A stretch of DNA of 33,041 bases from an uncultured Eubacteriales bacterium (lineage in GTDB: Bacteria > Bacillota > Clostridia > Oscillospirales > Acutalibacteraceae): contig ONCR01000013.1 in NCBI GenBank assembly GCA_900316345.1, forward strand, positions 1-33,041. The letters run 5' to 3'. Below are positions 2,233 through 27,702 of this stretch, one piece after another; within the stretch, counting starts at the first letter, position 1, and each line of letters starts with the position of its first letter. Under the pieces are notes generated by a model. It was not told where the DNA came from and made no database searches. It saw only the letters and a list, made by a program, of their open reading frames with translations. Both the position numbers and the translations under genes were made by a program.

Positions 2233-2246
2233 TCGGAGAACGGTTT

Positions 2247-11237: not shown

Positions 11238-11279
11238 TACTGAAAAGAGCTGTACGGATGTACAGCTCTTTTCAGTATT
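11236..11279. terminator. 20-bp perfect bidirectional terminator
   Basis: Bases 11236-11255 and 11260-11279 are perfect inverted repeats around a GGAT loop. The hairpin overlaps the stop codons of the converging GH95 and thioesterase genes. The arms carry GAAAAGAGC/GCTCTTTTC and A/T-rich ends, which suits termination from both sides. Confidence 0.85.
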
Positions 11280-11985
11280 CCATTTTAAGCCTGAACAGCT
11301 TTTTGTTTTCGTTTTTTGTTCCCGAAAGGTAAACAAGGCTTTCTTTTTCGGTATATGCCAAATCAAAGCTTTCACCGTAGCGCGCTTCGCCCGAATATTC
11401 AACTGCAACGTATTTAGGCGTTCTTCCGCCTGAGGCAATAGAGGTAATGTCCTGCGCTATATCAAAATACCTTGTGTTGGTAAGGTGGCCGTTAATATCC
11501 GAATAGCTGAAGGGAACGGTAAACGTTGCAGCCTTGTCCGTTTCAATCGGCTTGAGCGGCTTCGGCAGGGGATATTCTCTTCCGGTAACATTACCTTCTA
11601 TTGAAATTCCCTCGGAATCGGGGAAAACCATACCCCTTGTGTTTAAATCCATAAGCATCCAGAGCGCGCTGCCCTTAACTATGCATTCTCCGCCTTCGTC
11701 GTAAAGCTCGTAAAACCTCGGGAACATAACGTGCATGGTTTTTCCCGCCCACGAAACAAGCTTAACCCTCTCGTCATATTCGGGAAGGCGTTTGATTTCG
11801 GCGTGCTGAAGCGAAACTACCCATAAAAATCCACGGTCAAGCGTTTTTGCCCTGCCTGCGCCGAGCTGCTCCGTGTGGTGAATAGCCGCCTCCTGCATGA
11901 AAGTTAAGAGCTGTGAAACCCTTAAGCGGCGGAACATATCCACCTCACAGCTCTGAATTATATATTCCTTTTCGTAAAAATCCAT
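11272..11985 (-). CDS. acyl-ACP thioesterase (FatA/FatB-like)
   Basis: The 237-residue protein resembles the bacterial acyl-ACP thioesterase family, a double hotdog fold that hydrolyses acyl-ACP to a free acid. The first hotdog contains LLTFMQEAAIHHTEQLG and FLWVVSLQHAEI. The second contains the conserved FSYSDINGHLTNTRYFD, where Asp, Asn and His belong to the active-site helix and strand. It starts two bases after the ACP stop, with a weak ribosome binding site inside the ACP end, so it is probably translationally coupled. It is the last gene of a ligase-ACP-thioesterase operon, where it would release a product made on that ACP. It could instead be a housekeeping thioesterase. Chain-length preference is not readable. 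Confidence 0.88.
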   Translation of the reverse strand: MDFYEKEYIIQSCEVDMFRRLRVSQLLTFMQEAAIHHTEQLGAGRAKTLDRGFLWVVSLQHAEIKRLPEYDERVKLVSWAGKTMHVMFPRFYELYDEGGECIVKGSALWMLMDLNTRGMVFPDSEGISIEGNVTGREYPLPKPLKPIETDKAATFTVPFSYSDINGHLTNTRYFDIAQDITSIASGGRTPKYVAVEYSGEARYGESFDLAYTEKESLVYLSGTKNENKKLFRLKMEY

Positions 11986-11987
11986 TT

Positions 11988-12242
11988 TTATTCCATTCGC
12001 GATTCAAAGGCGGTAACAACATCGGAAAGGGTTGAAAGACCGTCCCACTCATCCTGAGGAACCTTAACGTCAAAATTAGCCTCAAGGCGGCAGATTATAA
12101 GTATCATACCCATGGAATCAATTCCGAGCTCCGTATTTATATTGGTGTTCTCGGTTATGGCTGTTCCCTCAAGCTCGGGCTGGCAGTCATAAATTGCGTT
12201 AATAATCTCCTGAAGAATTTCCTCTCTACTCATTTTTGCCAT
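11988..12242 (-). CDS. acyl carrier protein
   Basis: This 84-residue acidic, helical protein has the phosphopantetheine site GIDSMG with Ser43 as the attachment residue, a typical ACP length and the helix-II sequence MILIICRLEANFDVKVP. The start at 12242 is preceded by GGAGGAA nine bases upstream, and the first 17 bases overlap the end of the AMP-ligase gene. This is consistent with coupled translation. It sits apart from any fatty acid synthase genes, so it is probably a dedicated carrier charged by the upstream ligase and unloaded by the downstream thioesterase, rather than the housekeeping AcpP. Confidence 0.93.
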   Translation of the reverse strand: MAKMSREEILQEIINAIYDCQPELEGTAITENTNINTELGIDSMGMILIICRLEANFDVKVPQDEWDGLSTLSDVVTAFESRME

Positions 12243-13599
12243 TTTTCTCTTCCTCCGTTTTTTGGATTTCCCATCTTTTTATTTTACCCGTAGCCGTTCT
12301 CGGAAGCGGCTTATCGGTGAAAATAACATCTGTAATGCGGTGCGCCCTCGGCGATTTTTTCATTAGCTGATTAAGCTTTTCAACTATTTCCTTTCGCTTT
12401 TCGGGCATTTCCTTAATAACAAGCACGGGCTTCGCCTTAAGAAGTATTACCGCGAGCTCCGCGTTTTCAAGCGCCTTTGAAATCTCGTGCTCAAAATCGG
12501 GAAGAAAGATTTTTGTTCCGTTTTGAAGAACAAGCATTTCCTTTTTTCTTCCCGTAATGTGAAGCTTTCCGTCAAGGTCAATAAAGCCTAAATCGCCCGA
12601 ATGGAAAAGTCCGTCCTTAAGGGCCTCGGCTGTTTTTTCCCCGTCCTTGTAATAGCCCTGCATAATGCAGGTAGGCGCGCTGATTAATATTTCGCCGTCG
12701 GGCGCGATTTTAATTTCGTCGTCGGGGCAAATTTCCATTGCGTAAGGGTCGCCCGAAACGCTGATAGCAACTCCGGAGCTTGTTTCGGTTAAACCGTAGC
12801 CGAAGCTTATTTTTCTTCCCGAAGCCGTTGCTGCGGCGAGCACGTTTTCGGGGCAATCGCCTGCGCCGATTAAAATCAGCTTTAAGCTGTCGTTAAGAAG
12901 GTTTTGCTTAATAAGAAAGCCGAGCAGCATAGGCACAACGGAAACAGCCGTAGGCTCAAAATATTTTAAATCAAACGGCATATACCTTGCGCCCCGGCCG
13001 AGAGCCACCGCGCTTCCGCACGAAAGCCCCCAAAGCAGAGAGCAAACGAAGCCGAAAACGTGAGCCAGCGGAAGAAGGCACATAAGCACGTCGTTCTCTT
13101 CAAGCGGAAGCTTTGCAGAGCCGTTATAGGCGCTGTTGCAAAGGCTTTGCTCGGTTAATATGACCGCCTTTGACATACTTGTTGTTCCCGAGGTGAAGAA
13201 AAGTATTCGCCCTGCGTTTTTTTCAACGCCGTTTGTAAGGTGATTTGAATACCTCTTCACCGTTTCATCATCGCTGCTCCAAAGCATATCAACGTCCGAA
13301 TGAACGATTTGTTTTGCAATTATATCGGGGGTAACGCTCTTATCGAGCATAACAAGCTGAAGCCCCGCGCCTGCCGCGGCAAAGATTGTAGCTATGCATT
13401 CGGGAGTTGCTTCGGTAAAAATGCCTATACTCGTTTTGCCGGTAAGCTTAAGCTCTTCGGCCTTTTTATCAACCAAGGCAAGAAGCTCGCCGTAGCTCAT
13501 CTTAATTATTTGATTATTTTCATCAAAGATTAAGGCAGTTTTTCCGCTGTCTTTTTCAGAATAATAAGCAAGCATTTCCCTGAAGCTTTTAAATCTCAT
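12226..13599 (-). CDS. AMP-forming acyl ligase (acyl-ACP synthetase-like)
   Basis: The protein (457 residues from the ATG at 13599) belongs to the ANL adenylating superfamily. It activates a carboxylate with ATP and transfers it to a thiol, here most likely the adjacent ACP. Motifs are the P-loop-like ILFFTSGTTSMSKAVIL (~130-147), the A5 motif GYGLTETSSG, the A7/A8 block FHSGDLGFIDLDGKLHITGRK and the C-terminal catalytic lysine in PRTATGKIKR. It is shorter than typical fatty acyl-CoA ligases (~500-560). ATG 13599 is favoured over GTG 13608 because GGGGTG lies at a suitable distance upstream. The gene heads a three-gene operon divergent from the redox cluster. Substrate (fatty, aromatic or amino acid) is not determined. 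Confidence 0.88.
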   Translation of the reverse strand: MRFKSFREMLAYYSEKDSGKTALIFDENNQIIKMSYGELLALVDKKAEELKLTGKTSIGIFTEATPECIATIFAAAGAGLQLVMLDKSVTPDIIAKQIVHSDVDMLWSSDDETVKRYSNHLTNGVEKNAGRILFFTSGTTSMSKAVILTEQSLCNSAYNGSAKLPLEENDVLMCLLPLAHVFGFVCSLLWGLSCGSAVALGRGARYMPFDLKYFEPTAVSVVPMLLGFLIKQNLLNDSLKLILIGAGDCPENVLAAATASGRKISFGYGLTETSSGVAISVSGDPYAMEICPDDEIKIAPDGEILISAPTCIMQGYYKDGEKTAEALKDGLFHSGDLGFIDLDGKLHITGRKKEMLVLQNGTKIFLPDFEHEISKALENAELAVILLKAKPVLVIKEMPEKRKEIVEKLNQLMKKSPRAHRITDVIFTDKPLPRTATGKIKRWEIQKTEEEKNGKNE

Positions 13600-13630
13600 A
13601 GCGTTCACCCCGTTTTCTTTACTGTTTGAT

Positions 13631-13646
13631 AGTATATTAACATACT
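13631..13646. promoter_or_regulatory. palindrome AGTATnTTAAnATACT in the divergent promoter region
   Basis: AGTATATTAACATACT is a perfect dyad apart from the two 'n' positions. It lies 32 bases upstream of the ligase start, where a repressor would control the minus-strand operon. No convincing -35/-10 pair is visible for that strand, so the promoter itself is not called. Confidence 0.4.
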
Positions 13647-13691
13647 TTTACGATAAAAGATAGAACTTTTAGAAAATATTTCAAAAAAGTA

Positions 13692-13742
13692 GTGCATTTT
13701 GATAAAAAATACTGTATAATATGTTTGCGATAATTTTATCAA
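13692..13742 (+). promoter_or_regulatory. promoter of the redox cluster with a 9-bp inverted repeat around the -10 box
   Basis: TATAAT (13715-13720) is 17 bases downstream of a weak -35 (GTGCAT, 13692-13697). TTGATAAAA (13699-13707) and TTTTATCAA (13734-13742) are exact inverted repeats centred on the end of the -10 box, a typical operator position. Confidence 0.5.
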
Positions 13743-13764
13743 TCTAATTACGGAGGGAAATGTA

Positions 13765-15153
13765 ATGGAAAAAGACATTCGCATTTGTATTATTGGCGGA
13801 GGTCCGGCAGGTCTTTCTGCAGGTATGTACCTTGAGCAGAAGGGATATGAAAACTATACTATCCTTGAAAGACTTGACCGCGTAGGCGGTAAGTGCTGGT
13901 CTCCTACTTATAACGGCAGACGTTATGAGATGGGCGCTATCATGGGCGTTCCCTCATATTACGCCGTTCACGATGTTGAGGAATTCTGCGGCTTTACACA
14001 CGACGGCCCGAAGCTCAACAGAAACTATAAGGACGGCAAGGGCAACGTTATCGAGCCGTTCAACCCCAAGAAGAACATCACTAAGATTCCCCAGCTTCTT
14101 AAAATGAAGAAGCAGACCAAGAAGCTCGCCGAGCTCCTTGAAACCAAGTATAAGGGATACGACGTAAACGGCCACCGCGGCGTTGCAGAGGGAAGATATG
14201 AAGGCTTCTCACAGCAAAACGCAAAGCGCGAGCCCGTAAGCGGAAGCAACCCGAACCTTAAGGACCTTGCTATGCCTTTCAAGGATTGGTGTGAAATGAA
14301 CGGCGTTGAGCTTACTCAGAACGTATGGCTCGGCCCCTTCACCTCCTTCGGTTATGGCTATTTTGATGAAATTCCGGCTGCTTATGTTCTTAAGTATCTT
14401 GACTTCCAGACAACGATGAACTTCGTTAACGTTAACCTCTGGACCTGGAAAGACGGAACTCAGTCAATCTGGGAAAGACTTAACGACCATCTTAAGCACC
14501 CTGCAAGACTTAACTCAACAATCGAAAAGGTTGAGCGTAAGGACGGTAAGGTTTACGTAACAGTAAACGGCGAGGTTGAGGAATACGATAAGATTATCGT
14601 TACCGCTCCTCTTTACATCCCGAACAAGCGCGACGACGGCCAGATCGGTATGGTTGATTACTTCGACGCACGCGACGATGAAAAAGAACTCTTCTCAAAG
14701 ATTGATTACGAGCGTTACGACGTTCTTGCTGTTGAAACAAAGCCTGAGGACCATCCGGAAATCTCTTACTATGTATTTGATAATATGACTCCCGAAACCC
14801 TCGGTAAGCTTATGGTTTACTATCGCCGTTGGAAGGATACCAAGGACCAGGTTATCACAACCTATGCTCTTCGTAAGCATAAGAACAGCGCTGAAATTCC
14901 TTATGAGGAATGTAAAAAGCAGGTTCTTGAAGACCTTAAGACGATGCACAATCCTGCTTCCAACGTTGTTAACGAGTGGAGCGTTTACTACTTCCCGCAC
15001 GTATTCAGCGATGATTACGCAGCTGGCTGGTACGATAAGGTAGAGGCTATGCAGGGCAAGTACGATACTTATTATGCAGGCGAAGTTATGTCCTTCGGCG
15101 ACATGGACGAAACCGCAGAATATTCAAGAGAGCTTGTTGAGCGTTTCTTCTAA
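13765..15153 (+). CDS. FAD-dependent oxidoreductase, flavin amine oxidase-like
   Basis: The 462-residue protein starts with a dinucleotide-binding fold (ICIIGGGPAGLSAGMYLEQK, GGGPAG at 10-15), an acidic residue ending beta-2 (ILERLDRVGGKC), and a GxxW-type FAD contact region (KCWSPTYNGRRYEMGAIMG). The C-terminus (YYAGEVMSFGDMDETAEYSR) is the usual GD FAD motif. This layout fits the amine oxidase/protoporphyrinogen oxidase/phytoene desaturase superfamily. Substrate is unknown; no heme or amine pathway genes are adjacent. It is the first gene of the plus-strand redox cluster, divergent from the acyl ligase operon, with a good ribosome binding site (GGAGGG). Codon use looks optimised, suggesting high expression. 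A strong hairpin follows, so most transcripts may end here. Confidence 0.85.
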   Translation: MEKDIRICIIGGGPAGLSAGMYLEQKGYENYTILERLDRVGGKCWSPTYNGRRYEMGAIMGVPSYYAVHDVEEFCGFTHDGPKLNRNYKDGKGNVIEPFNPKKNITKIPQLLKMKKQTKKLAELLETKYKGYDVNGHRGVAEGRYEGFSQQNAKREPVSGSNPNLKDLAMPFKDWCEMNGVELTQNVWLGPFTSFGYGYFDEIPAAYVLKYLDFQTTMNFVNVNLWTWKDGTQSIWERLNDHLKHPARLNSTIEKVERKDGKVYVTVNGEVEEYDKIIVTAPLYIPNKRDDGQIGMVDYFDARDDEKELFSKIDYERYDVLAVETKPEDHPEISYYVFDNMTPETLGKLMVYYRRWKDTKDQVITTYALRKHKNSAEIPYEECKKQVLEDLKTMHNPASNVVNEWSVYYFPHVFSDDYAAGWYDKVEAMQGKYDTYYAGEVMSFGDMDETAEYSRELVERFF

Positions 15154-15178
15154 GATAACAGAATAAAGCTTTCAGCAG

Positions 15179-15205
15179 GGGAGGGGCATGTCCCCTCCCT
15201 TTTTC
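15179..15205 (+). terminator. intra-cluster terminator/attenuator (GGGAGGGG arm)
   Basis: GGGAGGGG (15179-15186) pairs with CCCCTCCC (15192-15199) around CATGT, followed by TTTTT from 15200. The next gene starts at 15233 and no promoter fits in between, so partial read-through is likely. Confidence 0.85.
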
Positions 15206-15232
15206 AAAGATGAAAACAGAAAGGATTAATAT

Positions 15233-16774
15233 ATGAGCTTTTTTAAAGACCATTATGATGTTGTTATCATCGGCGGCGCGCTTTCGGGTATGTCAACCGC
15301 TCTGCATCTGCAGGATAAGGGCGTCAAGGATATCCTCATTCTTGAAAAGCACAACCTTCCCGGCGGTCTTGCAACCGATTTTGTAAGAAACGGCTTTGAA
15401 ATTGAAGCAACTCTTCACGAAATGATGTCAATAGGCAAGAAGGGCAACCGCCTTAAGGTAGGCCAGTTTTTTGACGATATGGGCGTTGATATTGACTGGC
15501 TTCCCGTTCCCGAATGTTACCGCGTTGCGCTTCCGAATTCGGGCATTGACGCCATTATTCACGACGGCTATGAAACTGCCGCTAAAGAGGTCGACGCCGT
15601 TGTTCCCGGCAGTTATGAAAAGGTGCATGAGCTTTTCCTTCTTTGCCGCAGGGTTTACGACAGTATGAACGTTCTGTCCGTAACTCCGATGAGCAAGCTT
15701 CAAATGCTTCTTAAGCACCCCGATTTTGTTAAAACCGTTGGCTATTCGGCAACAGAGGTTATCAATACCTTTAACCTTCCGAAAAAGGCGGTTGAAATGA
15801 TTACGCCTTACTGGATTTACGTAGGCAACCGTATGGACGACCTTCCGTTTACAATTTACGCTTTTCTTATGGCTGACTATCTTACCGGCAGCTATGTTTG
15901 CCGCGGCTATTCTCACGAGATGAGCATGAAGATGGAAAAGAAAATTGAAGAAAACGGCGGCCAGTTCGAGTTTAAGCAGGAGGTTGAAAAAATCCTTGTT
16001 AAAAACGGCAAGGTTTACGGCGTAAGAACCAAAAACGGCGACGAAATCCACTGTGATTACGTTGTTTCCGCTCCGTATCCTAATAAGGTTTATACCCAGA
16101 TGATTGAACCGCTAAGCGAGGTTCCAAAGGGAGCTATCAAGCTTATCAACGGCCTTCATCTTTCGGTTTGCCCCGTTTCGCTTATCGCCGTTCTTGAGGG
16201 AACTCCCGAAGAAAACGGCCTTATGAACTATTCAACTTTCTCGGGCTCAACGATGGATACCAATAAAATCTGGGAAAACTATAAAAATATTACTGAGCCT
16301 TATAATTATATTACCACCATCTGCCTTAACTATGCTAACCCCGATTGCGTTCCGAAGGGCTATACCCAGGTTTCAATAACCGCCCTTGTTCCCGTTACCG
16401 CATTTGAAGGCGTTAAGGAGGAGGATTATTTTGACCTCAAGCGCCGCCTCGGCAACGAGATGATGGAGGAATACATTAAGATTTCGGGCGTTGATTTCAG
16501 GGATAATATTACCGAGGTTGAAATTACCACCCCGATGACTATTTCCCACTATGTAGGCGCATGGAAGGGAAGCATTTACGGCTATACCCATTCTATGGAT
16601 AACCACGCTGTTGCCCGCCTCGGCATGAAGGAGGAGGACCACTTTATTGAAGGCCTCGAATTCAACGGCTCGCCGGGTATGTCAGGCAACGGTATGGGCC
16701 CGGCCGTAACCAACGGCAGAGCTGCAGCTAAAGCAATACTTGAAGATATGGCAAAGAAGGAGGGCGCAAAATAA
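15233..16774 (+). CDS. phytoene desaturase/CrtISO-like FAD oxidoreductase
   Basis: The 513-residue protein belongs to the COG1233-like flavoprotein group that includes phytoene desaturases, carotenoid isomerases and retinol saturases. These act on polyene or isoprenoid lipids as desaturases, isomerases or saturases. N-terminal FAD fold: YDVVIIGGALSGMSTALHL, where the central Gly of GxGxxG is Ala, then ILEKHNLPGGLATDFVRNGF. C-terminal FAD contact: GSPGMSGNGMGPAVTNGRAAA. No carotenoid synthesis genes are nearby, so a different substrate is likely. An AAAGGA site precedes the ATG. Its stop overlaps the next start (TAATG at 16772-16776), so it is translationally coupled to the FNR/[2Fe-2S] protein, a strong hint that this reductase is its electron partner. 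Confidence 0.85.
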   Translation: MSFFKDHYDVVIIGGALSGMSTALHLQDKGVKDILILEKHNLPGGLATDFVRNGFEIEATLHEMMSIGKKGNRLKVGQFFDDMGVDIDWLPVPECYRVALPNSGIDAIIHDGYETAAKEVDAVVPGSYEKVHELFLLCRRVYDSMNVLSVTPMSKLQMLLKHPDFVKTVGYSATEVINTFNLPKKAVEMITPYWIYVGNRMDDLPFTIYAFLMADYLTGSYVCRGYSHEMSMKMEKKIEENGGQFEFKQEVEKILVKNGKVYGVRTKNGDEIHCDYVVSAPYPNKVYTQMIEPLSEVPKGAIKLINGLHLSVCPVSLIAVLEGTPEENGLMNYSTFSGSTMDTNKIWENYKNITEPYNYITTICLNYANPDCVPKGYTQVSITALVPVTAFEGVKEEDYFDLKRRLGNEMMEEYIKISGVDFRDNITEVEITTPMTISHYVGAWKGSIYGYTHSMDNHAVARLGMKEEDHFIEGLEFNGSPGMSGNGMGPAVTNGRAAAKAILEDMAKKEGAK

Positions 16775-17970
16775 TGGCAAAAAGCATTAAAGTTAAAGGC
16801 TTTCTTAAGGATGTCGGTGGCGCGTCAAGAATTACCGCGTTAAGGCATCAGGTTATTGAAAACGCCTCCGACGTTCCGCAGCCGAAGGATTTTGTACGCG
16901 AGCTTGCGGATAAGCTTCACCCTGCAAAAATGGAATTTAAGGTTACCCTTATTAAGGATACTTCGCCGACTTCAAAGCTCTTCCGCCTTGAATCTACCGA
17001 CGGTCATATTCCCGTATTCCAGGCAGGCCAGTATATCAACTTCCGCCTTAAGATTGGCGACAGTCTTCTTACAAGGCCTTATACAATCAGCTCAGCACCC
17101 TATGAGGCGCGCGGTGAAAACGGCTACGTTGAGGTTACAATAAGAAGAAACAGGCCCTATCTTGTTCCCGATTATTTCTTTGATAATGTTAAAGAGGGCG
17201 ACGTTTTAGAGGCTAATATGCCCTTCGGCTTCTTCTATTGGGAACCCCTACGCGACAGTAAAAACATCGTTGCCCTCGCAGGCGGCAGCGGAATTACCCC
17301 CTTCCTTTCAATGGCAAGGGAAATCGCCTTCGGTAAAATGAAGGGTTGTAAAATTACAATCATCTACGGCTCGGTTAATTCAAAGGACATCGTTCTCAAG
17401 GATGAGCTTGCAGAGGTTGAAAACGCCTGCAGCGACGTTAAGGTTGTTCACGTTCTTTCCGACGACCCCGAATGGGAGGGCGAAAAGGGCTTTGTAACCA
17501 AAGAGATTATTGAAAAGTATTCGGGCGAGGATTCGACCTATATGTTCTGCGGTCCGCTTCCGATGTATAATCTTATCGCCAAAACCATTAAGGAAATGGG
17601 CGTAAGGGAAAAACGCTTCCGCCACGACGTTATGAATAACCCCGTTGATTCAACAAAAATCCCGGGTTATCCCGTCGGCAACGAAACAAAGACCTTCAAC
17701 ATTACGGTTGTTCGCGGCATTGAGGAAACTGTTATCCCCGCAAGCGGTAACGAGCCTGTTGCCGTTGCGCTTGAAAGGGCGGCTATCCCCGTTGATACCC
17801 ATTGCCGCTGCGGCGAATGCGGCTTCTGCCGAACTCAGCTTCTTGAGGGCGAAATCTTTGTTTCCCCGATGGGCGACGGAAGAAGAATGATGGATAAGGA
17901 ATTCGGCTGGTTCCACGCCTGCGCTTCCTATCCTACGTCCGATTTAAAAATCAAAATTCCGATTATGTAA
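16774..17970 (+). CDS. NAD(P)H-ferredoxin-type reductase with C-terminal [2Fe-2S] domain
   Basis: This 398-residue fusion has a ~60-residue N-terminal extension and an FAD-binding barrel with the FNR motif TRPYTISS (~residue 104). An NAD(P)-binding domain follows (ALAGGSGITPFLSMAREIAFG, then YGSVNSKDIV and YMFCGPLPMY). The C-terminal plant-type ferredoxin domain has cysteines C344, C349, C352 and C383, in C-x4-C-x2-C-x30-C spacing. It would move electrons between NAD(P)H and a partner through FAD and a [2Fe-2S] cluster, as in NqrF or phenol hydroxylase-type reductases. Since no oxygenase is present and the cell appears anaerobic, the partner is probably the coupled desaturase-like flavoprotein. 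Cysteine C346 is an extra residue inside the cluster loop. Confidence 0.9.
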   Translation: MAKSIKVKGFLKDVGGASRITALRHQVIENASDVPQPKDFVRELADKLHPAKMEFKVTLIKDTSPTSKLFRLESTDGHIPVFQAGQYINFRLKIGDSLLTRPYTISSAPYEARGENGYVEVTIRRNRPYLVPDYFFDNVKEGDVLEANMPFGFFYWEPLRDSKNIVALAGGSGITPFLSMAREIAFGKMKGCKITIIYGSVNSKDIVLKDELAEVENACSDVKVVHVLSDDPEWEGEKGFVTKEIIEKYSGEDSTYMFCGPLPMYNLIAKTIKEMGVREKRFRHDVMNNPVDSTKIPGYPVGNETKTFNITVVRGIEETVIPASGNEPVAVALERAAIPVDTHCRCGECGFCRTQLLEGEIFVSPMGDGRRMMDKEFGWFHACASYPTSDLKIKIPIM

Positions 17971-17978
17971 ATCAACTT

Positions 17979-18005
17979 ACGGGAGGGTTTTTGCCCTCCC
18001 GTTTT
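17979..18005 (+). terminator. intrinsic terminator (CGGGAGGG arm)
   Basis: ACGGGAGGG (17979-17987) pairs with CCCTCCCGT (17994-18002) around TTTTTG, ending in a TTTT run. The arm is nearly the same as in the hairpins after the 13765 and 18131 genes. Confidence 0.85.
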
Positions 18006-18039
18006 ACTGTTTTAAAGCGTATAACTTTTTGTTTGCCTA

Positions 18040-18068
18040 TTGAAATTGTTCTATATTTATTCTATAAT
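18040..18068 (+). promoter_or_regulatory. promoter of first Fe-S/GltD fusion gene
   Basis: TTGAAA (18040-18045) and TATAAT (18063-18068) are separated by exactly 17 bases. The start codon is 62 bases downstream, after AAGGAG. Confidence 0.75.
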
Positions 18069-18130
18069 ATATTTAACTAATTAAGCAGTTTTGTCTTTTA
18101 ACTGTAAAAACGGAATAAGGAGAAATAGTT

Positions 18131-20944
18131 ATGCCAAGAGACGTTAACCCTGCCATTCACGTTAATGACTGGGATTTCCCTCACGAGGATTACCATTGCG
18201 ATGACCCCGAAAAGAAAAAGCTTGTAACAAAGCTTGCTCTTATGATTACGGATAATATTCCGCGTAAGCTTCCCGGCGGTATGAAGGAAAACCATATGGA
18301 TTTCTGGATTCTTGACCGTCTGCTTACCAAGGAAGAGGTTAAGTTTATGCTTAGCTTCAAGAAAAGAAGGGTTCCGCTTCGCGTCGGTGAGCTTGCAAAA
18401 AGAAACAATATGAGCGTTGAAGAGGCTCAAAAGATAATTGACCATATCCTTTGGATAGGCCTTCTTGAACAGAACAGAGAAAATGAGGACAGAGAACGCC
18501 AGTTCTTAATCCCGAAATGGGTTGTCGGCTCGGGCGAATATATGGTTGAGCATAAAACTCTTCCCGATACCAATCCCGAGGTTGCAACAATGTTTAACCT
18601 CGCTCCGCAGGAGCCGCTTGAGCTTGCTTCAAAGCTTATTCCTCCCGGGGGCGCAGGTATCGGTATGCACGTTATCCCCGTTGAAAAGGCTATTGAGCAC
18701 GAAAGCCAGTCCGTAAGCGTTGAGCATCTTTCTCATTGGCTTAATAAATACGATAAATTCTGTTCAATGGTATGCGCCTGCCGTAAGGCGCAGCGCTTCC
18801 GCGGCGAGGGCGTAGGCGATATTGAAGGCCATATGTGTATCGCTCTCGGAGATATGGCTGAATTTCTTGTTGAATCCGGCAAGGACGCCCGCTACATAAC
18901 AAGGGAAGAAGCGCTTGAAATTATTCTTCGCTCCGAAAAGAAGGGCTATGTTCACCAGATTACCAACCTTGACGGCCCCGATAAAATAGTAGGTATCTGT
19001 AACTGCTCTCCCGGCAGCTGCTACGGTCTGAGAACCTCCCAGCTTTTCAATACCCCGAATATGTCGCGCTCCGCATACAGAGCTCACGTTGAGCCCGAAA
19101 AGTGCGTTGCGTGCGGAAAGTGCGTTGAGGTTTGCCCTGCAGGCGCCGCGAAGCTCGGCCAGAAGCTCTGCAAGGCTGACGGCTCAAAGGTTGTTTATCC
19201 TATGCACGACCTTCCGGACGACCTTCCGTGGGGCGAGGAGCAGTGGGATAAGGACTACCGCGACCATAACAAGATTAACTGTTACGACGAGGGTACGTCC
19301 CCCTGTAAAACCGCCTGTCCCGCCCACCTCGCAGTTCAGGGCTACGTCAAAATGGCGGCTGAGGGAAGATATAAGGAGGCTCTTAAGCTTATCCGCCAGG
19401 ATAACCCGTTCCCGGCAGTGTGCGGCGCGGTATGTAACCGCCGCTGCGAGGACAGATGTACAAGAGGCCTTATTGATAAGCCCGTTGCTATTGATGAAAT
19501 TAAAAAATTCCTCGCTTATCGCGAGCTTGACGCAGGCGATGACTATATTCCCGAGGTTTGCTATAACGGCGTAGGCGAGCAGTGGGACGATTATAAAATT
19601 GCAGTTATCGGCGCAGGCCCCGCAGGCCTTTCCGCCGCATATTACCTTCGTACAGAAGGCTATCCCGTAACCGTATTTGAGCGCGAAAGCCGTCCCGGCG
19701 GAATGCTTACAAACGGAATCCCGAATTTCAGGCTTGATAAAAAGGTTGTTGAGGCTGAAATAGATATAATCAAAAAGATGGGCGCTGAAATCAGGTGCGG
19801 CGTTGAGGTTGGTAAGGACGTTACTCTTGACGAGCTCCGTGAGCAGGGCTACAAGGCGTTTTACGTTGCTATCGGCCTTCAGGGCGGTAGGCTTGCAGGC
19901 GTTGACGGCGAGGATGCAAACGGCGTTGAGAGCGGCGTAAGCTTCCTCAGAAGAATTAACCTTGACGAAAGCATTAAGCTTGACGGCGACGTCGTTGTTG
20001 TAGGCGGCGGTAACGTTGCTGCCGACGTTGCAAGAACGGCTGCACGCGCCGCAAGCGGTAAGGTTAAAATGCTTTGCCTTGAACAGAGAGATGAAATGCC
20101 TGCGGCTAAGGATGAAATTGCCGAGGTTGAAGAGGAAGGCATTGAAATCCTTAACGGCTGGGGCCCGAAGGAAGTTCTTAAGGATGAAAAGGGCAACGTT
20201 AAGGCTATCGTGTTTAAAAAGTGCGTTTCGGTATTTGACAGCGAACGTCGCTTTGCTCCCGTTTATGACGAGGAGGATACCTTAACCGTTGAATGTAAAA
20301 ACGTTCTTATGGCTATCGGCCAGAGCGCTGAATGGGGCGACCTTCTTAAGGGCTCAAAGGTTGAGCTTAACAGAAACGGCACTGCCGTTGCCGACCCCGT
20401 AACCTACCAGACGGGCGAGCCCGATATCTTCGTAGGCGGCGATATTTACCACGGCGCGCGCTTTGCGATTGACGCTATCGCAGAGGGTAAAGAGGGTATG
20501 GTTTCAATAAACCGCTTCGTTCATCCCGGCCAGTCCTTAACCATCGGCAGGGATTTAAGACAGTTTATTGAGCTTGACCGCGACGATATTCTTGTTGATT
20601 CCTATGATAACGCTGACCGCCAGGCTCCCGGAATGAGAGACGGCGACCCGCTTAAAACCTTTGACGACCTTCGCCTTCCGTTAACCGAAGAGCAGGTTAA
20701 GGCAGAGGCTAACCGCTGCCTCAGCTGCGGCGCAACAACCGTTGACCTTAACCAGTGCATAGGCTGCGGACTTTGCACAACGCGCTGTGAGTTTGACGCT
20801 ATTCACCTTACGCGCGATATTCCTCAGGCAAGCGAAATGCACACAGCCGAGGAAATGATGAAGGTTGTAGGCCCCTATGCTCTTAAACGCGAAATGAAGA
20901 TAATCAAGCGCAGAATGAGAGAAAAAAAGGCGGCTAAAAAATAA
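18131..20944 (+). CDS. Fe-S/GltD-type fusion flavoprotein, copy 1
   Basis: This 937-residue fusion has four parts. Residues 1-~150 are helical, winged-helix-like. Residues ~190-300 are an unusual cysteine domain (C211, C215, C217 in a CACR motif, C236, then C290-N-C292 and C297). A 4Fe-4S motif CVACGKCVEVCP follows at 325-335. Next comes a glutamate-synthase-beta-like unit: Fer4_20 cysteines (C392, C396), FAD fold GAGPAG at 494 and NAD(P) fold GGGNVA at 625. A C-terminal pair of cysteine groups (RCLSCG at 862-867, CIGCGLCTTRC at 876-886) completes it. It would exchange electrons between NAD(P)H and ferredoxin-like clusters, perhaps for an unseen partner bound by the N-terminal domain. It has its own promoter and terminator. 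Exact function is not known to me. Confidence 0.87.
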   Translation: MPRDVNPAIHVNDWDFPHEDYHCDDPEKKKLVTKLALMITDNIPRKLPGGMKENHMDFWILDRLLTKEEVKFMLSFKKRRVPLRVGELAKRNNMSVEEAQKIIDHILWIGLLEQNRENEDRERQFLIPKWVVGSGEYMVEHKTLPDTNPEVATMFNLAPQEPLELASKLIPPGGAGIGMHVIPVEKAIEHESQSVSVEHLSHWLNKYDKFCSMVCACRKAQRFRGEGVGDIEGHMCIALGDMAEFLVESGKDARYITREEALEIILRSEKKGYVHQITNLDGPDKIVGICNCSPGSCYGLRTSQLFNTPNMSRSAYRAHVEPEKCVACGKCVEVCPAGAAKLGQKLCKADGSKVVYPMHDLPDDLPWGEEQWDKDYRDHNKINCYDEGTSPCKTACPAHLAVQGYVKMAAEGRYKEALKLIRQDNPFPAVCGAVCNRRCEDRCTRGLIDKPVAIDEIKKFLAYRELDAGDDYIPEVCYNGVGEQWDDYKIAVIGAGPAGLSAAYYLRTEGYPVTVFERESRPGGMLTNGIPNFRLDKKVVEAEIDIIKKMGAEIRCGVEVGKDVTLDELREQGYKAFYVAIGLQGGRLAGVDGEDANGVESGVSFLRRINLDESIKLDGDVVVVGGGNVAADVARTAARAASGKVKMLCLEQRDEMPAAKDEIAEVEEEGIEILNGWGPKEVLKDEKGNVKAIVFKKCVSVFDSERRFAPVYDEEDTLTVECKNVLMAIGQSAEWGDLLKGSKVELNRNGTAVADPVTYQTGEPDIFVGGDIYHGARFAIDAIAEGKEGMVSINRFVHPGQSLTIGRDLRQFIELDRDDILVDSYDNADRQAPGMRDGDPLKTFDDLRLPLTEEQVKAEANRCLSCGATTVDLNQCIGCGLCTTRCEFDAIHLTRDIPQASEMHTAEEMMKVVGPYALKREMKIIKRRMREKKAAKK

Positions 20945-20955
20945 TAATTAACGTA

Positions 20956-20987
20956 GGGGAGGGCCTCTGTGCCCTCCCTGTTGTTTT
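20956..20987 (+). terminator. intrinsic terminator (GGGAGGGC arm)
   Basis: GGGAGGGC (20957-20964) pairs with GCCCTCCC (20971-20978), with a six-base loop and TGTTGTTTTT after it. It is the third of three near-identical arms in this cluster. Confidence 0.85.
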
Positions 20988-21010
20988 TAATAATTATTTA
21001 TATTATAATA

Positions 21011-21039
21011 TTGCAATATGTACCGGTTTAGATTATAAT
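21011..21039 (+). promoter_or_regulatory. promoter of second Fe-S/GltD fusion gene
   Basis: TTGCAA (21011-21016) and TATAAT (21034-21039) are separated by 17 bases. The chosen start at 21101 lies 62 bases after the -10, the same distance as at the paralogous gene. Confidence 0.75.
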
Positions 21040-21100
21040 ACATTTGTATAATTATAACTTTGTTATTTTTATGTCAGACGAATGGAAAAGGAGATTGGCT

Positions 21101-24025
21101 ATGCCTGAAATTTATGACAAAATGCCCCATACCAAATCAAAGTATGACGGCGAAAAGGAAAAGAAAAAGAAGTACGCCAAGCTCGGTGCAAAAATCACCG
21201 ATAACGTTCCTCATAAGCTTTTCGGCTTAAAAACAACCGATGAAGAGTATTGGGGCCTTCGCGAAATCCTTAATGAAAACGAGGTCGAAATTGCCTTATC
21301 AATGAAGCAGCGTAAGTGGTATACCAAAGAGCAGCTTTATGATATGAATAAAAGCAAGATGGACGAAAAGACCTTTAAGGAAACCCTTAACCTTCTTTGC
21401 GTTCATGGCTTTGTTGAATACGATTACGGCGACCATTACGATGATAACGGCCCGATTGAAGGCGCGCCGAAGGAACTTCGTTACAGAACAAGCTATTTTG
21501 TTCCCGGAAGTGCGGAGCTTTTTAATTCATCGGTTGACCGTATCAAGAACAATCCGCCTGTTGCAAAAATGTTTGAGCGTATGACCTTCCTTCCCCTTGA
21601 GCATATCACGTCTATGATTATGCCCGGCGGTAACGGCATCGGTATGCACGTTATCCCCGTTGAAAAAGAGGTTAATGCAAGCAGAGAGGCAATGAGCATT
21701 GAAAAGCTTTCATATTGGCTTCAGAAATATGACGGCCACCTTTCGGCAGGTATCTGCTCCTGCCGTTATTCCCGCGCGGAAATCGGCGAAGGTTGTACCG
21801 ATGACGGCGATGATTGGTGTATCCAGGTTGGCGATATGGCCGATTATACCGTTGAAACGGGCAGAGCGCATTACATAACAAAAGAAGAGGCCCTTGATAT
21901 CCTTCAAAAGGCTGAGGATAACGGCTACGTTCATCAGGTAACCAATATCGACGGCGAGGACCATATTTTTGATATTTGTAACTGTAACGTTAAAATCTGT
22001 AACGCTCTTCGCACCTCGCTTCTTTTCAATACCCCCAATATGTCAAGAAGCGCGTATACAGCTAACGTAACAAAGGAAAACTGCGTTGCCTGCGGACGCT
22101 GCGTAGAGGTTTGCCCTGCAGGTGCGGTTAAGCTCGGTCAGAAGCTCTGTCAGAAGGACGGAACCGAGGTTAAATATCCCAAAGCCGTTCTTCCGGATAA
22201 AATCCGCTGGGGCAAGTATGCGTGGGATGAAAACTACAGGGACACCGCAAGGGTTAATACCCATAAAACGGGTACTGCTCCGTGTAAAGCCGCCTGTCCG
22301 GCTCACGTTCCGATTCAGGGTTATCTTAAGATGGCTAAGGAGGGCCGCTACGACGAGGCTCTCGCTCTTATCAAGCTTGAAAACCCGTTCCCCGCAATCT
22401 GCGGCAGAGTTTGTAATAAGCGTTGCGAGGACGCCTGCACAAGGGGAACGATTGATAAGCCCGTAGCTATTGACGACGTTAAAAAATTCCTTGCAGAGCG
22501 TGACCTTCACGCCGATACAAGATATATTCCCAAGAAGATTACAAAGCGCGTAAGCGGCGAATGGGAAGAAAAAATCGCCATTATCGGCGCAGGCCCCGCA
22601 GGCCTTTCGGCGGCTTATTACCTTGCAACGATGGGCTATAAGCCAACCGTATTTGAAAAGAACGAAAAGCCCGGCGGAATGATGACCTACGGCATTCCCT
22701 CCTTCAAGCTTGAAAAAGACGTAATCGATGCTGAAATTGATATTATCCGCGCTCTCGGCGTAGAGATTAAATGCGGCGTTGAGGTTGGTAAGGACGTAAC
22801 CATAAATGAGCTTAAGGAGCAGGGCTACGAGGCCTTCTATATTGCAATCGGCTGCCAGGGCGGAAGACTTCCCGGCATAAACAATGATACTGCCGAGGGC
22901 TGCGAAATTGCCGTTAAATTCCTTGAAAAGGCGCTTTCGGATACAACTAAGGACCTCAGCGGCGACGTAGTGGTTATCGGCGGCGGCAACGTTGCTATTG
23001 ACTGTGCAAGAACCGCAATGCGCAAGGGCGCAGATAAGGTTTCAATGTACTGCCTTGAATCGCGCGAAACCATGCCCGCTTCTCTTGAAGAGATTGATGA
23101 GGCTGAGGAAGAAAACGTAATCATTAACGCAGGCTGGGGACCGAAAGAGGTTCTTACCGATGAAAACGGCAAGGTAAGCGGAATAGTTCTTAAACGCTGC
23201 CTTTCAACCATTGACGAGGCTACGGGCAAGTTCTCGCCGAAGTACGATGAGGATGATACCGTTACCGTTCCCGCAAGCAAGATTGTTTTCGCTATCGGCC
23301 AGGCTATAGAATGGGGCAAGCTTCTTGAGGGTACAGCCGTAACCTTCCACCACGGTAATTATCCCGTTGCGGATTCCTTTACATACCAGACCGCTGACCC
23401 GTGTATTTTTGTAGGCGGCGACGTATTCACGGGCCCGAAGTTTGTTATTGACGCTATCGGCCAGGGCCACGAGGCTGCTGAATCGCTTTCAAGATTCGTT
23501 TCAAAGAACAACGTTTCCCAAACTCTTGCAAGGGACCGCCGTTACTTCAAGGAGCTTGATAAGAACAATATCGCCATTGATTCTTACGATACCGCTCAAA
23601 GGCAGGTTCCGCCCGTTGACGAAAGCATTGATTATAAGCACGGCTTTGTTGATAACAGGCTCATCTTTACCGAGGAACAGGTTAAGGCCGAAACCTCACG
23701 CTGCCTGAGCTGCGGCGCAACGATTGTTGATGAAAACAAGTGTATCGGCTGCGGCCTTTGTACAACCAAGTGCGAATTTGACGCTATCCATCTTGTACGC
23801 GACCATCCGGACGCTTCCAATATGAGAAGGGCAGAGGATAAGGTCGGCGGACTTCTTTCCTACGCTATCCCGAGAGCGTTTAATATCGTTCTTAACAGCG
23901 GCAGCGAGGAAGCTAAGATGATGCGCAAAAAGCGTAAGGAATATAACAAGGCTACAAAGGAATTCCGTAAAACTCATCCTCATACCGGTAACGGCGTTGA
24001 TATTGAAGAGATGATGAAAGATTAA
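21101..24025 (+). CDS. Fe-S/GltD-type fusion flavoprotein, copy 2
   Basis: This 974-residue paralog of the preceding gene has the same layout: an N-terminal helical domain, the Cys domain (GICSCRYSRAEIG, then DICNCNVKICNALRTS), CVACGRCVEVCPAGAVKLGQ, a Fer4_20 region (APCKAACPAH), FAD fold IIGAGPAGLSAAYYLATMG, NAD(P) fold VIGGGNVAIDCARTA and C-terminal clusters (CLSCGATIV, CIGCGLCTTKCEFDA). ATG 21101 is chosen because AAAAGGAG lies seven bases upstream; an upstream in-frame ATG at 21044 has no site and sits by the promoter. Differences from copy 1 lie mostly in the N-terminal third and a longer Lys-rich C-terminus, so the two copies probably meet different partners or form a heteromer. HypA follows 18 bases downstream. 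Confidence 0.87.
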   Translation: MPEIYDKMPHTKSKYDGEKEKKKKYAKLGAKITDNVPHKLFGLKTTDEEYWGLREILNENEVEIALSMKQRKWYTKEQLYDMNKSKMDEKTFKETLNLLCVHGFVEYDYGDHYDDNGPIEGAPKELRYRTSYFVPGSAELFNSSVDRIKNNPPVAKMFERMTFLPLEHITSMIMPGGNGIGMHVIPVEKEVNASREAMSIEKLSYWLQKYDGHLSAGICSCRYSRAEIGEGCTDDGDDWCIQVGDMADYTVETGRAHYITKEEALDILQKAEDNGYVHQVTNIDGEDHIFDICNCNVKICNALRTSLLFNTPNMSRSAYTANVTKENCVACGRCVEVCPAGAVKLGQKLCQKDGTEVKYPKAVLPDKIRWGKYAWDENYRDTARVNTHKTGTAPCKAACPAHVPIQGYLKMAKEGRYDEALALIKLENPFPAICGRVCNKRCEDACTRGTIDKPVAIDDVKKFLAERDLHADTRYIPKKITKRVSGEWEEKIAIIGAGPAGLSAAYYLATMGYKPTVFEKNEKPGGMMTYGIPSFKLEKDVIDAEIDIIRALGVEIKCGVEVGKDVTINELKEQGYEAFYIAIGCQGGRLPGINNDTAEGCEIAVKFLEKALSDTTKDLSGDVVVIGGGNVAIDCARTAMRKGADKVSMYCLESRETMPASLEEIDEAEEENVIINAGWGPKEVLTDENGKVSGIVLKRCLSTIDEATGKFSPKYDEDDTVTVPASKIVFAIGQAIEWGKLLEGTAVTFHHGNYPVADSFTYQTADPCIFVGGDVFTGPKFVIDAIGQGHEAAESLSRFVSKNNVSQTLARDRRYFKELDKNNIAIDSYDTAQRQVPPVDESIDYKHGFVDNRLIFTEEQVKAETSRCLSCGATIVDENKCIGCGLCTTKCEFDAIHLVRDHPDASNMRRAEDKVGGLLSYAIPRAFNIVLNSGSEEAKMMRKKRKEYNKATKEFRKTHPHTGNGVDIEEMMKD

Positions 24026-24043
24026 TGTACGGGGGTAAACATC

Positions 24044-24394
24044 GTGCATGAAATGGGAATAATCATTAACCTTGCAAGAACGCTTGATGAAACCGCAGAG
24101 GAACAGAATATCGTTAACATAGGTAAGGTAACGCTTCAGGTTGGCGAGGTTTCGGGAATAATGACGGATTTGTTCGTTGATTGCTGGAACTATTTTAAGG
24201 GAAGGCATCCCGTTCTTAAGGACAGCGAACTGATTCTTGAAACTATCCCCGCCGTAACCTATTGCTCAAGCTGTGAAAAAACCTATGAAACGGTTAAATA
24301 CGGCAAGGAATGTCCGTATTGCCACAGCGGCGAAACCTGGCTTGTTCAGGGTAATGAGTGTATAATTAAAGAAATCGAAGCCGAAACTGCATAG
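24044..24394 (+). CDS. hypA: HypA/HybF-like nickel metallochaperone
   Basis: The 116-residue product matches HypA, a zinc-structured chaperone that delivers nickel to [NiFe]-hydrogenase or urease. The GTG at 24044 is taken as the start because it gives MHEMG, placing the nickel-binding His2 exactly where the family needs it. GGGGG (24030-24034) serves as ribosome binding site. The zinc site is C74-x2-C77 and C90-x2-C93 (YCSSC, CPYC). It lies 18 bases after the second fusion flavoprotein and probably shares its transcript. No hypBCDEF, hydrogenase or urease gene is in the window, so its client is unclear. The nickel-pincer genes lie 2-5 kb further on, on the other strand. Confidence 0.88.
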   Translation: MHEMGIIINLARTLDETAEEQNIVNIGKVTLQVGEVSGIMTDLFVDCWNYFKGRHPVLKDSELILETIPAVTYCSSCEKTYETVKYGKECPYCHSGETWLVQGNECIIKEIEAETA

Positions 24395-26541: not shown

Positions 26542-27693
26542 TTACTGCTTAAGCATTTCGCGCGCTTCAAAAAGGGAAATGTCATTTTCAAGCGCAAGGC
26601 GTTTAAGGTCCTCAAATTCCGTTTTTTCTCTGTGCGTTCCGTAGCCGTCGGAGCGCTTTATTGTTACGCCGCTTTCCTCTTTAAGCTCTCGGCTCAGCGT
26701 GTAGCGGCTCGGGGTGTATTTTCTTATTCCTATGGTTGTTGTGTGCTTAAATATCAGAGAAGCAAACTTTTCCTCCTCGCTTTTTTTACAAAGCACGGTG
26801 AAAAGGTAGGCAGGCCTGCCTTTTTTCATAATTATCGGCGAAATGAAACAGTCAAGCGCGCCTTCGTCAAGCATTCTTTCCATGGCAAACGCGGCCTCCT
26901 CGCCCGTTATATCGTCAATATTGCATGAAAGCTCGCTTACCGTTTCGCTACCCTCAAATGAAAAAACGCGAAGAATATTTGCTCTTTCAAGCTGCTTCGT
27001 TCCGCAGCCGATACCGATTTTTAATACGTTCTTCATTTCGGGCTTTTCGGTGAATTCATCGGTGAAGTATTTCAAAACGGCGGCTCCCGTAGGAGTGCAA
27101 AGCTCCGTTTGAATTTCGCTTTTATAATACGGAACGCCCGTAAGGATATTTGCCGTTGCAGGCGCAGGCACGGGAAGAACGCCGTGAGCGCATTTAACAG
27201 TACCGTTACCTACGTTAATAGGGGAGGCGTATATTTTTTCGGCGTTAAGCCTGTTAAGAAGATACGCCGTCAGCGTAATATCCGCAATGGCGTCAAGCAT
27301 TCCGAGCTCGTGAAAATGAATTTCGCCTACGGGCTTGCCGTGCGCCTTGCCCTCTGCTTCTGCGATTATTCCGTAAATGTTTATAACGTCTGTTTTAACC
27401 TTGTCGCTTATATTGAGCGCTTTTATAATCTCCTCGGTTTCGGCAAGCGTTCTTCCGTGGTGATGATGGTGATGCTCCTCCTCGGGCTTTTCCTCTTCGC
27501 CGCTGATTACAATTTTAAGCTTTGAGCCCGTAATTCCGCATTGCTCGGCGGTGGTGTATTCTATTACTGTATGGGGAAGGCCGAGGGAATTAAGCTCTGA
27601 TATGATTTCGTCCTTGTTTTCAAAAAGACTTACCAGCGCGGAGGCAAGCATATCGCCTGCAGCGCCCATACTGCATTCAAAATATAAATTCAT
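26542..27693 (-). CDS. larC: nickel-pincer cofactor nickel insertase LarC
   Basis: LarC inserts nickel into pyridinium-3,5-bisthiocarboxylic acid mononucleotide, the last step of the nickel-pincer nucleotide (NPN) cofactor. The 383-residue protein starts NLYFECSMGAAGDMLASAL. It carries a His-rich metal loop (EEEHHHHHHGRTLAETEE at ~73-90) and HFHELGMLDAIADITLTAYL, and ends with the conserved IIMKKGRPAYLFTVLC region. In Lactobacillus plantarum it is split as larC1/larC2 and joined by frameshifting; here it is one continuous frame. AGGA lies seven bases before the start, nine bases after the larB stop. It is the last gene of larE-larB-larC. Confidence 0.93.
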   Translation of the reverse strand: MNLYFECSMGAAGDMLASALVSLFENKDEIISELNSLGLPHTVIEYTTAEQCGITGSKLKIVISGEEEKPEEEHHHHHHGRTLAETEEIIKALNISDKVKTDVINIYGIIAEAEGKAHGKPVGEIHFHELGMLDAIADITLTAYLLNRLNAEKIYASPINVGNGTVKCAHGVLPVPAPATANILTGVPYYKSEIQTELCTPTGAAVLKYFTDEFTEKPEMKNVLKIGIGCGTKQLERANILRVFSFEGSETVSELSCNIDDITGEEAAFAMERMLDEGALDCFISPIIMKKGRPAYLFTVLCKKSEEEKFASLIFKHTTTIGIRKYTPSRYTLSRELKEESGVTIKRSDGYGTHREKTEFEDLKRLALENDISLFEAREMLKQ

Positions 27694-27702
27694 CTTTTCA
27701 TC

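Follow-up and report, generated by a model that had tools for sequence, protein, structure and literature searches.

A conserved and mobile gene cluster around a fatty-acid-isomerase homologue, with a probable role in anaerobic biohydrogenation of polyunsaturated fatty acids

The hydrogenation of dietary polyunsaturated fatty acids shapes the fats of milk and meat, and its genes are mostly unknown. The closest described systems are the polyunsaturated fatty acid isomerase (PAI) of P. (Cutibacterium) acnes, the linoleate isomerase and conjugated linoleic acid (CLA) reductase of Butyrivibrio fibrisolvens, and the multi-enzyme saturation pathway of Lactobacillus plantarum, which runs through hydroxy and oxo intermediates. 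Here we analyse a stretch of 33,041 nucleotides (the window) of contig ONCR01000013.1, assembly GCA_900316345.1, from an uncultured Eubacteriales bacterium, in which a PAI homologue is flanked by a putative conjugated-diene reductase with its electron-transfer partner and, divergently, by a ligase, an acyl carrier protein (ACP) and a thioesterase (the acyl trio). The genes suggest that the cluster probably carries out the anaerobic biohydrogenation of dietary polyunsaturated fatty acids through activation, isomerisation, reduction and release.

A culture of C. acnes made trans-10,cis-12 CLA, and co-cultured B. fibrisolvens was credited with its reduction to trans-10 18:1; among 28 rumen species in pure culture, only C. 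acnes made trans-10 intermediates (PMC7339423). The structure 2BAB is named as that of the P. acnes isomerase (PMC6162330), and the enzyme names CLA-HY/DH/DC/ER of L. plantarum are given in a glossary (PMC13365329). The fatty-acid oxidoreductase was described as absent from KEGG, COG and Pfam, with one sequence reported, in a work that also worked out an electron-sink benefit for the butyrivibrios (PMC4478896), and detoxification of polyunsaturated acids has been stated as a benefit as well (PMC10019597). The main text of the latter paper makes no use of the terms operon, gene cluster, acyl carrier, oxidoreductase or reductase. Homologues of PAI have already been reported from rumen genomes; a description of the gene set around them was not found in the open-licence literature, which was represented mostly by titles and the starts of abstracts, and its absence is thus unproven.

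The initial annotation had placed a ligase-ACP-thioesterase trio on the minus strand and flavoproteins, an FNR/[2Fe-2S] reductase and two Fe-S/GltD fusions on the plus strand, and all of them are open reading frames at the positions and on the strands claimed, with Pfam domains above cut-offs. It had given 165 bases for the divergent region, which measures 156, and its right-hand limit, 24394, is the end of a gene for a HypA homologue that it had left unnamed. The cluster comprises, in window coordinates:

11272-11985, minus strand: thioesterase P0001, acyl-ACP type, FatA/B-like (Pfam PF01643/PF20791 above cut-off)
11988-12242, minus strand: dedicated acyl carrier protein P0002 (PF00550)
12226-13608, minus strand: AMP-forming acyl ligase P0003, putative acyl-ACP synthetase (PF00501)
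13609-13764, no strand: divergent intergenic region of 156 bases, the gap between P0003 and P0004
13765-15153, plus strand: flavoprotein P0004, fatty-acid-isomerase (PAI) homologue (457 bits to the 2b9w/2bab sequence)
15233-16774, plus strand: CrtI-fold flavoprotein P0005, putative conjugated-diene reductase ('SAT'; predicted model and PDB fold match)
16774-17970, plus strand: FNR-type reductase P0006 with a C-terminal plant-type [2Fe-2S] domain (PF00970/PF00175/PF00111)
18131-20944, plus strand: Fe-S/GltD fusion 1 (GltD1), P0007, NADPH-type oxidoreductase (Pfam/NCBIfam domains)
21044-24025, plus strand: Fe-S/GltD fusion 2 (GltD2), P0008, paralogue of P0007 (Pfam domains; internal ATG at 21071)
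24044-24394, plus strand: HypA nickel metallochaperone homologue P0009 (PF01155, 94 bits)

A scan of a genome collection with a P0004 alignment revealed 379 relatives, and we analysed the loci of the best 80 of these 379 (82–95% identical), leaving out of each count those with short flanks (63, 69 or 53 of the 80 used). Trio and redox genes, claimed earlier as one set, do co-occur in the relatives: the genes for ligase, ACP and thioesterase lie divergently upstream of the PAI gene in 60, 60 and 59 of 63 loci, respectively, P0005 and FNR each follow it downstream in 68 of 69, and 49 of 53 loci combine P0005, FNR and ligase. This association survives changes in gene order: in L149/L101 (judged to be one genome) and in L150 the genes ligase-ACP-thioesterase-PAI-P0005-FNR-GltD1 are co-directional, and L151 shows the order PAI-P0005-FNR-ligase-thioesterase, with no ACP recognised. 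Any two PAI proteins from the 80 loci have an identity of at least 79.9% (median 87.2%), yet among the 67 loci that have three or more flanking frames, just 41 of 2211 pairs have a flanking gene in common at 60% identity, HypB genes included. Since flanks are rarely common and PAI occurs in 2 of 60 genomes of the window's genus, source included, the set travels as a unit; it is thus both conserved and mobile.

P0004 is a fatty-acid-isomerase homologue, judged by its sequence. The homology extends over nearly the full length (residues 2–138 and 166–462 of 462) of the protein of PDB entries 2b9w, 2b9x, 2b9y, 2ba9, 2bab and 2bac (E 6.9e-136), which PDB names a putative aminooxidase; the second-best PDB match, an amine oxidase, reached 44 bits. 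All 80 close relatives share residues R86 and F220, which align with the PAI active-site residues that we take to be R88 and F193, forming the carboxylate site and the gate. By homology to the P. acnes enzyme, the regiochemistry of P0004 would be trans-10,cis-12. The cluster differs from the C. acnes system in that a putative reductase, an FNR and the acyl trio adjoin the isomerase gene. It resembles the B. fibrisolvens system in the proposed overall conversion, isomerisation followed by reduction of the diene, and the L. plantarum one in being a multi-enzyme bacterial route for linoleic acid saturation; none of the enzyme types of the latter appears in the Pfam results for this cluster.

The AlphaFold model of P0005 (pLDDT 90.7), built on a 55-sequence alignment of P0005 and 54 of the 92 homologues listed, has as its best PDB match the gamma-carotenoid desaturase 4rep (TM 0.78), with CrtI next. 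The protein matches generic Pfam flavoprotein families, and no NCBIfam model reaches its cut-off among the 25 matches listed: the nearest, for carotenoid isomerase and the crtI family, stay far below (TIGR02730, 104.8 bits against 586.9; TIGR02734, 103.2 bits against 238.1). It is therefore best seen as a relative of CrtI, CRTISO and RetSat and not as belonging to the family of either model. CrtI-type families are enzymes that act on conjugated polyenes with flavin adenine dinucleotide, which suits the role that we infer for P0005 from its predicted model, that of a conjugated-diene reductase. The likeness to CrtI, carotenoid isomerase and retinol saturase lies in the fold and in hidden Markov model matches, whereas the adjacent FNR, the fatty-acid gene context and the low scores set P0005 apart. 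The initial annotation had counted two phytoene-desaturase-like enzymes with a possible saturase role; P0005 does have the CrtI fold, whereas P0004 scores at most 34 bits against phytoene-desaturase models, versus 457 bits to PAI. Both the fold of P0005 and the constant presence of an FNR partner are consistent with a saturase-like role. A carotenoid or terpenoid pathway was considered and rejected, given the PAI-like P0004 and the scores of P0005 far under the cut-offs for carotenoid enzymes.

The FNR gene adjoins P0005-type genes, distant relatives included, in 14 of 14 places of the sample of the window's order, window included, and in 12 of 13 places examined in a sample of Lachnospiraceae, for which 13 of 16 P0005 places were taken (left out were G357, identical to L092, and two fragments of G939). 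The four cluster cysteines of P0006 are kept in 74–75 of 76 aligned relatives (this count and the residue counts below take in proteins aligned over more than 80%). A tree of 97 P0005 homologues of 480–560 amino acids, built with a quick method and with several long branches, grouped 79 PAI-linked rows and 3 others on one branch (SH-aLRT 99); one of these 3 comes from a genome with PAI elsewhere.

The acyl trio is predicted to be functional. The solved relatives of P0001 are acyl-ACP thioesterases, with 2ess as the best, and its residues D163/N165/H167/N170 are kept in 75 of 75 aligned relatives; likewise, Ser43 of P0002 is kept in 52 of 52 and the C-terminal Lys442 of P0003 in 71 of 72. With their catalytic residues conserved, all three proteins should be active, and the adjacency of their genes suggests that P0003 loads P0002. 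By its model scores, P0002 does not look like a housekeeping ACP: its best scores against housekeeping models were 47.6 and 47.4 bits, for cut-offs of 66 and 70, and among the 15 NCBIfam models listed there is none whose cut-off it reaches. Housekeeping fatty acid synthesis, which the initial annotation had named as the finding that would undo its reading, was rejected on this ground for the ACP.

The two fusions P0007 and P0008 are 53% identical. In a fold search with a model of P0007, for which the alignment held 27 of 54 homologues plus P0007 and P0008, the GltD half best matched NfnABC/StnABC chains, and GltD-type chains were among the best 50 matches listed. The C-terminal halves of both fusions are thus like NfnB/StnB and GltD-type oxidoreductases, the GltD type being that of the large subunit of NfnAB. 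They differ from these in having HypA/HypB neighbours in part of the loci and an extra N-terminal region of about 310 residues (window 18131-19066 and 21044-22045), with six conserved cysteines and of no named family: neither N-terminal region matches a Pfam family above cut-off, and residues 1–312 of P0007 match no NCBIfam family. The six cysteines of this region of P0007, in the arrangement CxC...C...CxCx4C, are kept in 44–45 of 45 aligned relatives; we presume that a similar pattern occurs in widespread Fe-S proteins of anaerobes.

Of the 80 relative loci, 20 contain HypA: a GltD fusion is no more than 100 bases away in 10 of them and a HypB gene no more than 200 bases away in 7 (one locus shows both), whereas 4 have neither in the locus. 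In 17 of the 80 there are HypB-like frames, each roughly 220 codons long, and three of them scored 232–246 bits for a TIGR00073 cut-off of 121.2. Besides each other, the most frequent neighbour of HypA/HypB in these loci is the GltD fusion. HypA recurs near the fusions or the trio in the window and in L044, L077, L081, L115, L153, L177 and L179, joined among the relatives by one or two HypB genes. Of 29 genomes with the cluster or relatives of it, a set that includes G191 and G730 (P0005-type genes and no PAI at E 1e-20), 27 have HypB above its cut-off, 4 a [NiFe]-hydrogenase large subunit and 6 HypD; neither a [NiFe]-hydrogenase nor HypD was found in the source genome, which is 95% complete. 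As the hydrogenase and HypD were not found in 25 and 23 of the 29 genomes, respectively, a hydrogenase is apparently not what HypA/HypB serve in most cases, and they look like a hydrogenase-free pair. As a control, 33 of the 295 genomes sampled from the order have HypB, 4 of 4 with PAI and 29 of 291 without it; the HypB gene stands apart from the cluster in the source genome, G237 and G295.

Taken as a pathway, the cluster would work as follows. P0003 would activate an exogenous C18 polyunsaturated fatty acid and load it onto P0002; P0004 would then shift one double bond into conjugation, and the resulting diene would be trans-10,cis-12 if the enzyme behaves as its P. acnes homologue. P0005 would add two electrons and two protons and so convert the conjugated diene into a trans monoene, with electrons passing from NAD(P)H through the FNR/[2Fe-2S] protein P0006. 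The fusions P0007 and P0008 might give further reducing equivalents, perhaps after maturation with HypA (and a HypB encoded elsewhere in the genome), and P0001 would free the monoene product. The cell may gain from the detoxification of polyunsaturated acids or from an electron sink. Within this scheme, a polyunsaturated fatty acid is very probably the substrate and biohydrogenation the process; the ACP-bound state, the order of the steps and the electron route are predicted from gene content and homology. The earlier idea of an acyl substrate is right in outline, and the set is conserved; its parts, however, are modules that also occur in other combinations, and HypA, with HypB in some relatives, accompanies the redox part too.

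These modules are PAI with the trio, P0005 with FNR, and GltD with or without HypA/B. In the order sample, PAI occurs in 4 of 295 genomes, the same 4 that have P0005 of at least 56% identity (hypergeometric p 3e-9); in one of them, G286, the two are on different contigs. Among 299 genomes of the family to which a Lachnospiraceae record belongs, PAI was found in 12 and P0005-type genes in 14, and all 7 with PAI of at least 66% identity have P0005 of at least 51% (hypergeometric p 2e-13), the PAI of G932 being cut by a contig end; both p values ignore the kinship among genomes. Another five PAI of this family are 53–57% identical, four of them in genomes without a P0005-type gene at E 1e-20 and one in a genome with a 31% gene. 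In the phylum of the Coriobacteriaceae record L113, PAI was found in 2 of 296 genomes, that of L113 included. The redox genes of a relative, SIG554 (L037/L021), are 92–94% identical to those of the window and its trio 65–72%, so the two halves differ in rate or history. Carriage on plasmids was rejected: of 72,556 plasmid records, 3 matched P0004 and 14 matched P0005, all at less than 60% identity. In plasmid pDA100 of Photobacterium sp. DA100 (L117, 6001-8858), a P0005-like (23%) and a P0004-like (28%) frame are adjacent; this strain is a marine-type gammaproteobacterium.

Several observations weigh against biohydrogenation by the cluster as a whole. Divergence is much faster in the trio, FNR and P0005, with median identities to the window of 47–54%, 51% and 58%, than in PAI, with 87%, and GltD1 lies within 6 kb downstream in 32 of 53 loci with enough flank, with some GltD fusion in 42 of 53. 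L092 and L094 have no trio within 4 kb; L025 and L143 have PAI, ligase and thioesterase, and L115 PAI and parts of the trio, with no P0005 in the stretches examined. Conversely, G730 has two P0005-type genes (44%) and no PAI, and in the order sample 9 of 295 genomes lack PAI and have P0005-FNR pairs of 26–35% identity. A carrier-bound substrate is not required at the isomerase step, if P. acnes PAI acts on free fatty acids, as we take it to do. Five distant PAI loci (51–54% identical) have no recognised trio gene or P0005 in the stretches examined; three of them (L177, L179 and L181) adjoin a GltD fusion, two of these three also being near HypA and one of those two near two HypB genes, and of the other two loci, one is cut by a contig end and one has no recognised partner. 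The isomerase presumably needs no net electrons, yet these distant homologues adjoin GltD; the two may thus cooperate in some manner that biohydrogenation as set out above leaves unexplained, and PAI in these three loci may be part of a net reduction. In addition, the activity of every protein here is a prediction, and the habitat count given below is biased.

Some of these observations could also be explained if PAI and the trio merely isomerised or detoxified, converting and recycling toxic acids, with P0005/FNR acting on another co-travelling conjugated or polyene lipid; the loci with PAI and trio parts and no P0005 (L025, L143, L115) and the P0005-FNR pairs without PAI would be as expected. 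The placement of P0005 and FNR directly after PAI in nearly all loci, and the single branch that gathers the PAI-linked P0005 rows with three others, argue otherwise, and we consider this explanation unlikely. A purely anabolic role, in which the cell's own acyl-ACP would be tailored into trans or conjugated membrane fatty acids instead of dietary ones, would account for a dedicated ACP, ligase and thioesterase with intact catalytic residues. However, the patchy presence within the genus argues against a membrane-lipid housekeeping role, the ligase implies an exogenous free acid, PAI is an enzyme of polyunsaturated acids, which to our knowledge Clostridia do not make, and the records show a ruminant bias; such a role is improbable.

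The third alternative retains the main lipid chemistry and adds ferredoxin coupling: FNR and GltD would form an Nfn-like bifurcating complex, with the double bonds as terminal electron acceptor. It is suggested by the electron-bifurcating NfnABC/StnABC chains that best match the GltD half of P0007, by the position of GltD1, which is on the same strand within 6 kb 3′ of the FNR gene in 43 of 80 loci and separated from it by 24 bases or less in 32 of these 43, and by a make-up, FNR/[2Fe-2S] plus GltD/[4Fe-4S], that we take to resemble that of NfnA/NfnB. Against it, P0006 is nearer to the BenC and PRK10684 models (126 and 117 bits) than to PRK06222 (34 bits), presumably an NfnA-related model, and dihydropyrimidine dehydrogenase and glutamate synthase share the GltD match, which therefore gives no indication of bifurcation; in our view this alternative has little probability. 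Biohydrogenation is, in our view, the best explanation.

The titles of 67 of the 80 records include a ruminant host or organ or a RUG/RGIG/RUI code, which we take to denote ruminants, and the other 13 name no habitat; the count is biased because it comes from the best 80 of 379 relatives and is uncorrected for the share of ruminant records in the collection. The nearest named relative among these best 80 of 379, L036, is from roe deer omasum, and the source habitat was probably the rumen or other ruminant gut. By NCBI names, 76 records are from Bacillota, 2 from Spirochaetota and 2 from Actinomycetota; as most titles indicate metagenome-assembled genomes or uncultured organisms, single placements may be binning errors. 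A conserved set in uncultured ruminant bacteria offers markers for metagenomes and candidate enzymes, among them a candidate reductase, and makes the question of the biohydrogenation genes directly testable.

A bolder possibility, which we put forward tentatively and regard as rather doubtful, is that the cluster is a trans-10 biohydrogenation pathway of uncultured rumen bacteria in which PAI and P0005 act on ACP-tethered polyunsaturated chains with electrons from HypA/HypB-dependent GltD fusions, and that its mobile copies across Clostridia, Lachnospiraceae, spirochaetes and Coriobacteriaceae would account, as its missing agents, for the 'trans-10 shift' seen with milk fat depression. That shift has been tied to operational taxonomic units (OTUs) of the [Eubacterium] coprostanoligenes group, Muribaculaceae, the Lachnospiraceae NK3A20 group and Olsenella (PMC9853040); Lachnospiraceae and Coriobacteriaceae are among the names of records that carry the cluster, a link to these OTUs that is suggestive only.

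The initial annotation had all genes share one promoter region. Promoter-like sites are present on both strands of the divergent region, and the following features lie between plus-strand genes of the window:

17979-18002, plus strand: terminator-like stem 3′ of the FNR gene (pattern only)
18040-18068: promoter-like site 5′ of GltD1 (11/12 matches)
20956-20979: terminator-like stem 3′ of GltD1
21011-21039: promoter-like site 5′ of GltD2

Given these, a single promoter region is not supported, yet the overall counts of promoter- and terminator-like sites in the window are within the range of shuffled sequence, and the gap between FNR and GltD1, 160 bases here, is short in most of the relatives that have GltD1 in this position, as given above. 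Scans of the window with Rfam (gathering threshold) and for tRNA genes gave no matches.

Downstream of the cluster, at 26542-29224, the window contains homologues of LarC (assigned through Pfam Ni_insertion) and, as we take them to be, of LarB and LarE, adjoining FeoAB and a cation efflux gene in a metal-related block. LarC, LarB and LarE take part in the synthesis of the nickel-pincer cofactor; a role for them with the cluster was rejected, as they accompany it in 0 of the 80 relative loci in the stretches examined. On the other side, positions 2199-6524 encode a putative surface protein of 1441 amino acids, with a weak C-terminal match to a Hint module, below cut-off.
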